Assembly: GCA_947489315.1 (NCBI GenBank)
Contig: CANLCX010000002.1
Location: 744,001-808,000, forward strand
From: an uncultured Sphingomonadaceae bacterium
Lineage (GTDB): Bacteria > Pseudomonadota > Alphaproteobacteria > Sphingomonadales > Sphingomonadaceae
Reading direction: 5' to 3'
Length of the DNA stretch: 64,000 nucleotides
Shown: piece by piece, positions 28,441 through 53,096 of the stretch
How the letters are laid out: each line of letters opens with the position of its first letter
How positions within the stretch are numbered: position 1 is the stretch's first letter
The notes under the pieces: model-generated
Told to the model about the DNA's origin: nothing
Database searches by the model: none
Seen by the model: only the letters and a program-made list of their open reading frames with translations
Translations under genes and position numbers: made by a program

Positions 28441-28582
28441 AGATTATACAGTTTATACACAGAATCGACTAAAATTCAGAGTCCTCTTCAGCAAGGACAG
28501 GCACCTAAGAAAATGTTGAATCTGCAAGGCTGAGAAAGAACGCTTTACATTTATCATGGTCCGAAGGTTGTAGGAAAGCACT
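28441..28582 (+). repeat. Dispersed structured repeat, copy A
   Basis: Starts 18 bases after the CNNM stop. The first 25 bases (28441-28465, beginning AGATTATACAGTTTATAC) are identical to the complement of 52941-52965. Then comes the hairpin GACT-AAAATTCAG-AGTC, a conserved block TGAATnTGCAAGnnTGAGAAAGA, and the end TGTAGGAAAGCACT. See copy B at 52829-52965. Not coding: the two copies differ by about five bases in length. Confidence 0.75.
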
Positions 28583-52718: not shown

Positions 52719-53096
52719 TTGTCGCAGGCTACCAACAGCTTTGCGCCAACAACCCAAAACCAGATTGGGATTAGCGGACCCTTACGCTCTGCTCAGAGGG
52801 AGCAGCGTTTGAATCGCTATTCCAATAAAGCGCTTTCCTACAGCTGTGACCCTGTGATATTTGCAGCCGCTGCTCTTTCTCAATCTTGCATATTCACGTT
52901 CACGAAATTCTTCGAAAATCGGCGGAGGAATTTTTCCGCTATTCTGTGTATAAACTGTATAATCTGTTGGAAATGACCCAAGCTTATAAAATAGGAAAAC
53001 CGCCGGAAAACTAAGTTTTTTGGTGCGAATTTAGCGAAGTTTAGATATTAGCTGCCTCACGCTTGCGCCCTTGCCTCTTAACTGCGACAAAAGCCC
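52719..53096. other. Intergenic region with dispersed repeat copy B
   Basis: About 380 bases without a supported gene. It contains repeat copy B (52829-52965) and the upstream region of the hydroxylase gene. A plus-strand open frame (52719-52976) crosses the repeat and has no family features. Confidence 0.6.
52829..52965 (-). repeat. Dispersed structured repeat, copy B
   Basis: Read on the minus strand from 52965: the same 25 bases as copy A, then the hairpin GCGGA-AAAATTCC-TCCGC, where copy A has GACT-AAAATTCAG-AGTC. So the stem differs but the loop AAAATTC stays. A second small hairpin GCAG-CGG-CTGC stands where copy A has AAAG-AACG-CTTT. TGAATATGCAAGATTGAGAAAG and TGTAGGAAAGCGCT follow in register (start given for each only). 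Confidence 0.75.

Follow-up and report, generated by a model that had tools for sequence, protein, structure and literature searches.

What are the two similar intergenic sequences that lie in opposite orientations in one 64,000-nucleotide stretch (the window) of an uncultured Sphingomonadaceae genome (GCA_947489315.1, contig CANLCX010000002.1, positions 744,001 to 808,000), and are they features of an RNA or of the DNA itself? A preliminary description saw in them an undescribed dispersed element in two inverted copies, A and B, with a hairpin kept by compensatory changes. The parts of the two copies are listed below (G and L numbers are our own designations of genomes and loci; box classes are lettered).

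28441-28582, + strand: copy A of the dispersed element, between larger ORFs
28441..28467, + strand: class A box of copy A, two 9-bp direct repeats (AGATTATAC AGTTTATAC ACAGAATCG)
28516..28541, + strand: type I motif of copy A, TTGAATCTGCAAGGCTGAGAAAGAAC, with the core TGAGAAAGA
28552..28578, + strand: end module of copy A, TATCATG-N10-TGTAGGAAAG
52829-52965, - strand: copy B of the dispersed element, between larger ORFs
52939..52965, - strand: class A box of copy B
52872..52897, - strand: type I motif of copy B, GTGAATATGCAAGATTGAGAAAGAGC
52833..52859, - strand: end module of copy B, TATCACA-N10-TGTAGGAAAG
53011..53036, - strand: upstream of copy B, remnant of an older and decayed class H box, recognized by eye

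The likeness described for the two copies was confirmed, as they share an exact 25-base match (AGATTATACAGTTTATACACAGAAT), an interior block (TGAAT.TGCAAG..TGAGAAAGA) and a common end (TGTAGGAAAGC.CT), and so was their intergenic position. The core of the type I motif is present in 18 modules of the genome to which the window belongs (the own genome). On the opposite strand, the end-module sequence TGTAGGAAAG reads CTTTCCTACA, which is the motif found upstream of genes resembling those for the phage terminase small subunit (TerS).

The proposal of a dispersed, undescribed element was borne out, with far more than two copies. A search of the whole genome and its relatives with the 25-bp end, defined as the class A box (27 bp, at most three mismatches), found 22 places in the own 3.88-Mb genome and none in the reversed control, so that A and B are not the only copies in existence. 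The box occurs in 10 of 60 genomes including its own, all of one genus. At 21 of the 22 places it is followed by the end box TGTAGGA[AC]AG, with 102-151 bp between box start and motif end, and at the remaining place (L014, the locus of gene L429) a TerS-like gene sits between box and end motif. DnaA boxes were considered for TTATACACA, which lies within many class A boxes, and were rejected as it is altered to TTCTACACA, TTATACGCA and others. In many class A and B copies a further motif was seen by eye ahead of the box, with GTTCATATT at a distance of about 25-30 bp and CCTGA right next to it.

The analyst set the box classes and their mismatch limits. Classes B and D were each found in 14 of 147 genomes and are confined to the genus. 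Class C has 37 places in the own genome, and the 14 genomes (of 60) in which it was found comprise 13 from the genus (one with a single two-mismatch place) and one from outside, again with a single place at two mismatches. Among the matches listed for a second box class, the named contigs come from Sphingorhabdus and uncultured Sphingomonadaceae, and the lone matches in unrelated organisms look like chance. The end module (TATCA-N12-13-TGTAGGAMAG) occurs in 35 of 147 genomes, namely 31 of the 32 genomes of the genus and four outside it with one to three places each, and with a looser pattern 31 places were counted in the own genome versus 2 in the control. The end-module profile was built from modules preselected for TGTAGGA[AC]A[GT], and those columns are conserved by construction. 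Arrays of several boxes are common and, by eye, have all boxes in one direction and a single end module at the array end. REP-like hairpins (GTGCTCCGCACTTGATGCGGAGC and others) were seen within array spacers or directly 3' of boxes at L216, L219, L220, L223, and L423, and two very similar end modules lie 1.6 kb apart (G030:C3:168472 and 170040). A viral origin of the boxes was rejected, since viral contigs gave 0 matches to the class C pattern and to the type I end-module pattern.

Boxes and end modules are linked to TerS-like genes, and a full-length unit consists of the end module (CTTTCCTACA), one TerS-like gene, and, at the stop codon or shortly behind it, a tandem-repeat box specific to the class. 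A protein search found 10 TerS-like paralogous places in the own genome. The end motif lies near the start of nine of these genes, and in the eight measured it precedes the ATG by 37-64 nt; box A is found 3' of L429, box D 3' of L426 and L428, and box C 3' of L423 and L424, where the stop codon is inside the box. The comparison was extended to 52 TerS-like ORFs, comprising L423-L430 and L432-L460 from protein searches and L463-L480 hand-picked from protein-search matches, several for nearness to a box; T[TG]TCCTAC[AT] was present within 110 nt upstream of the start in 49 of them. The class of the box after the stop matched the clade of the protein in all 16 C, all four B, six of seven A, and three of seven D members, and no cross-class match occurred in these clades. 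Protein searches, and not boxes, had led to 12 of the 16 ORFs of class C. At least one of the four unmatched D-clade ORFs, L442, carries a D-like repeat of somewhat shorter length, and L453, which belongs to another family outside these four clades, has a C-like tandem repeat.

Clade labels were given by hand after a first tree in which the B type was represented by a single partial row, three other rows being absent; the B type was assigned by its alike N-termini, which was later borne out. A, B, and D are supported clades in the trees and C is less clear. The second tree placed the four B-type proteins in a clade of their own (100/98), joined to the C and D types (95/97) and apart from A. 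Drift of box A into box B in place is weakened by this grouping, and the change between boxes is therefore termed a class switch.

The TerS-like family is present in 124 of 147 genomes, mostly as a single gene outside family f1 and with up to 14 members in this genus. TerS-like genes of several further genera and of one further family are also preceded by the end motif; among 19 TerS relatives on viral contigs, taken as a control, it was upstream of one. Box-less end modules adjoin a gene for an HTH protein at 6 of the 10 end-module loci viewed, in six genomes of the genus. In the own genome this box-less TerS-like gene (L421/L145) is broken by one in-frame TAG.

The linked proteins are, by profile matches and a structural model, related to TerS. 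Four of them match PHROG 4044 (terminase small subunit) with E-values of 3e-13, 2e-20, 2e-14, and 6e-17, and phage tblastn matches include several proteins annotated as terminase small subunit and others annotated as hypothetical. Pfam searches with eight proteins gave no match above the cut-off, Sf6_terminase and HTH appearing only below it, and no catalytic domain known to move DNA; NCBIfam gave no match in the one protein tried. The second model of L429 (mean pLDDT 68.8; best in residues 21-120, with 77-89 per ten residues) matched TerS in a viral fold library from E 2e-6 at probability 1.0, and predicts an N-terminal HTH, a long helix, and a beta-hairpin in that order. A PDB fold search with the weaker first model found nothing below E 0.001, with SPP1-like and Sf6 TerS among the best matches (E 0.25-1.1).

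One own-genome gene, L430, is without the end motif and precedes a large-terminase (TerL) gene, which was found 3' of it in a profile search that covered the L430 flank among the 10 own genes. Behind this TerS and TerL pair (L461:4118-6096) come a fragment of a tail protein, a DUF2793 protein, and a protein resembling OmpA. Six ORFs around the pair, within a 19-kb stretch, were scanned and none encodes a portal or capsid protein; the region is perhaps a phage or GTA remnant.

The elements are kept in place over species and are also copied. Loci of relatives are orthologous to those of the own genome, and gene-less copies are retained at the same intergenic places across species. The LysR-LysE locus was matched in 32 of 32 genomes, and most of the 30 loci read by eye hold the element, which is seemingly missing from L077, L078, L081, and L082, the two genes abutting in L081 and L082. 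Box class differs between species at several of the loci, being A or B at LysR-LysE and at L039, D or B at L165, and C or C with H at L158. The copy B locus is class A here and class H in G011 (L257) and G017 (L491), where no class A box was recognized.

Gene-bearing units were compared in 8 of all possible copy pairs, covering 11 loci in three genomes, and were 87-99% alike at different loci with unlike flanks. The pairs are not independent, because five of the 11 loci are class C copies of G031. The shared sequence begins no more than 2 bp from CTTTCCTACA in four pairs (L468/L469, L462/L471, L470/L462, and L462/L472), 7-12 bp before it in three, and 64 bp before it in L426/L428; on the box side it ends anywhere from just past the box to about 500 bp beyond. 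Alike pairs at different loci with a shared start indicate that units were copied and have one roughly fixed end; the box-side limit is not fixed, and no target-site duplication was recognized by eye in the compared pairs. The sequence TGTCCGCTTTYGGGATA precedes the end motif by about 60-70 bp in L424, L426, L428, and, as a close variant, L429; it may belong to the unit or mark a preferred target.

Spacing within class C arrays is quantized at close to whole helical turns. Box-to-box spacings peak at about 47, 57, 68, 80, 92, 103, and 114 bp, and 72 clusters, reduced from 117 distinct spacers of up to 350 bp, gave a best period of 11.15 bp (R 0.75, a value attained by 0 of 2000 jittered sets). 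The box-to-end distances behaved similarly, with a best period of 11.35 bp in 28 clusters from 94 stretches (R 0.64; 0 of 2000 jittered sets). With stricter pruning of all pairs that were similar in length and 50% or more identical, 71 of 118 spacers (loci L145 onward) again gave 11.15 bp (R 0.67, p about 1e-14). This period is close to in-vivo fits of the helical repeat, 11.08 and 11.60 bp per turn, stated in a passage of PMC1762422, and the phasing was read as a DNA-level nucleoprotein arrangement. Class C of G031 alone (30 intervals among the matches listed) fits best at 9.35 bp (R 0.53), with R 0.46 and p 0.0016 at 11.15 bp. Class B distances, which like those of class A were entered by hand from box listings, fit 10-10.5 bp in G010 (11 distances, p about 0.001-0.003) and weakly in G003, and the 21 class A distances of the own genome show no phasing (R 0.01-0.15 at periods 9.5-11).

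Against this background, the reading first given to copies A and B, a non-coding structured RNA or a cruciform site whose hairpins vary in a compensatory way, is hardly tenable. The proposed stems, GACT/AGTC in A and GCGGA/TCCGC in B, do exist, and copies at the LysE locus seem by eye to share a longer stem that has paired changes, but recurrence among the other copies is lacking: a stem of at least 4 bp follows the box at that place in just 4 of the 22 own-genome copies. Those of A and B are at chance level, since shuffled sequences reach an equal or longer stem in 23% (A) and 15% (B) of trials. Stem changes on one side only were not found as such, because 18 of the 22 copies have no stem there at all. 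Copy A has no inverted arms of at least 8 bases, copy B has one imperfect 9-base inverted pair inside the copy, and neither has terminal inverted repeats at its ends. Rfam covariance models gave 0 matches at gathering score in the whole window and only two chance-level matches to copy A (E 1.2 and 4.6), and an RNA gene on either strand was rejected, folding energies favoring no clear strand. The constraints that were found, in contrast, act on DNA, as the boxes are class-specific and linked to TerS-like proteins with a predicted HTH, and class C spacings are quantized at the helical repeat.

Two further explanations were considered. A domesticated regulatory network without present mobility is possible, although rather unlikely; the TerS-like paralogues would be transcription factors, the boxes their upstream sites and the end modules promoters, and intergenic copies would regulate their neighbors or themselves. 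The presence of the end motif before TerS-like genes beyond the genus would suit such a network, as would the conservation of places between species, the resemblance of the motif, read towards the box, to an extended -10 promoter (the analyst's reading), and helical phasing, which is known from regulatory loops. The closely alike copies at different places fit it poorly. In addition, 204 modules, reduced to 57 independent loci with genes taken as the longest ORFs, had the left gene on the + strand in 26 and on the - strand in 30 (one locus had no left gene) and the right gene on + in 21 and on - in 36. The absence of a clear polarity is at odds with promoters of neighboring genes, and a reading of the end module as promoter for the gene on its right was rejected, that gene being on the + strand in just 21 loci. 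By eye, no repeated neighbor gene family such as a transposase or regulator was found at class C boxes in the 25 largest clusters (625 ORFs, 80 loci). Packaging start sites, which we regard as improbable, would give boxes and end module a function like that of phage cosB and cosN or pac: each orphan TerS paralogue would have its own phased cosB-like boxes and share a common cosN-like end module, phage or GTA particles would be directed to package chromosomal DNA beside the boxes, and elements and their neighborhood would spread by transduction. The protein family, the phased site arrays, the TerS and TerL pair in the genome, and units with one nearly fixed and one variable boundary are all consistent with packaging. 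It is disfavored by the six ORFs scanned near that pair, none of which encodes a portal or capsid protein, by the end motif missing from 18 of 19 viral-contig TerS genes, and by RcGTA, for which passages of PMC7947584 and PMC6854486 report no discrete start sites and an HTH-less TerS.

The explanation that we favor, and hold to be probable, is that copies A and B are gene-less, trans-recognized derivatives of a TerS-only mobile element with an upkeep resembling that of REPIN-RAYT systems. Judging from the sequences, a TerS-like oligomer would bind boxes of its own class wherever they are present, and the DNA between boxes and end module may be looped or wrapped, so that phase matters. The end module appears promoter-like and near the fixed terminus of the unit, and the TerS-box complex could control this promoter and, by a further step, the copying of the unit. 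The 130-bp copies would be internal-deletion derivatives to which the protein still binds in trans, and changes of box throughout the genome would come from the boxes following their protein. Several observations weigh against such an element. The eight proteins have no domain known to move DNA, leaving self-movement unexplained; target-site duplication was not recognized and unit boundaries are not all clean. Class A spacings are unphased in the own genome and G031 fits best at 9.35 bp, and G017 has 15 end modules yet no TerS match at E 1e-6. The PDB search with the weaker model gave no match below E 0.001, some of the 52 ORF loci were chosen for nearness to a box, and protein-box binding is inferred from sequence.

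According to passages of PMC8049555, REPIN-RAYT systems consist of short gene-less repeats with inverted REP hairpins and a tyrosine transposase, RAYT. The present element resembles them in having short gene-less repeats that are genome-wide, long kept, and tied to a protein gene with the same ends, and the dispersal is of a similar kind, with 22 class A boxes, 37 class C boxes, and 31 end modules versus 2 in the control. It differs in that the protein is TerS-like (PHROG 4044 for four) and not a tyrosine transposase, a direct-repeat box at one end and a dissimilar end module at the other stand in place of inverted REP hairpins, and there are several protein classes and several boxes per genome, some of them multi-copy. 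MITEs are short internal-deletion derivatives that keep both ends of a larger element. The gene-less copies are likewise short and have both ends of a larger unit, but no terminal inverted repeats were found in them and no target duplication was recognized. Phage TerS with pac or cos sites has in common with the present system the protein family (PHROG 4044 and viral fold), the modeled order of HTH, long helix, and beta-hairpin, and a presumed DNA site beside the gene; here, however, the paralogues are chromosomal, the sites are dispersed, and 18 of 19 viral-contig genes are without the upstream motif. SaPI/PICI satellites are small elements with their own TerS that redirects specificity, and they have an integrase, replication genes, and helper-phage induction. 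A small element with its own TerS is found here too, but the repeated unit is about 0.8-1.4 kb with one recognized gene.

The small terminase of RcGTA, gp1, is described in a passage of PMC6854486 as HTH-less and as binding DNA non-specifically, and the RcGTA passages of PMC7947584 and PMC6854486 state that no discrete packaging start sites are known. The present proteins are TerS kin, with a TerS-TerL pair in the genome (L430, L461), but the paralogues have a predicted HTH and boxes of their own. Given an RcGTA without start sites and with an HTH-less TerS, a GTA role here would be new. Judging by search listings, none of the open-licence PMC papers searched, a collection that most subscription papers lie outside, describes such a system.

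A phage DNA-packaging protein family seems to have come to stand at the center of a system of dispersed chromosomal repeats, in which one genome has several coexisting protein-site pairs. These pairs would form a natural series in which DNA-binding specificity and dozens of sites change jointly, and the near-whole-turn spacing would be a footprint of in-vivo DNA geometry that can be read from sequence. The system may also provide a route to ask whether terminase small subunits mobilize or mark chromosomal DNA outside phages.
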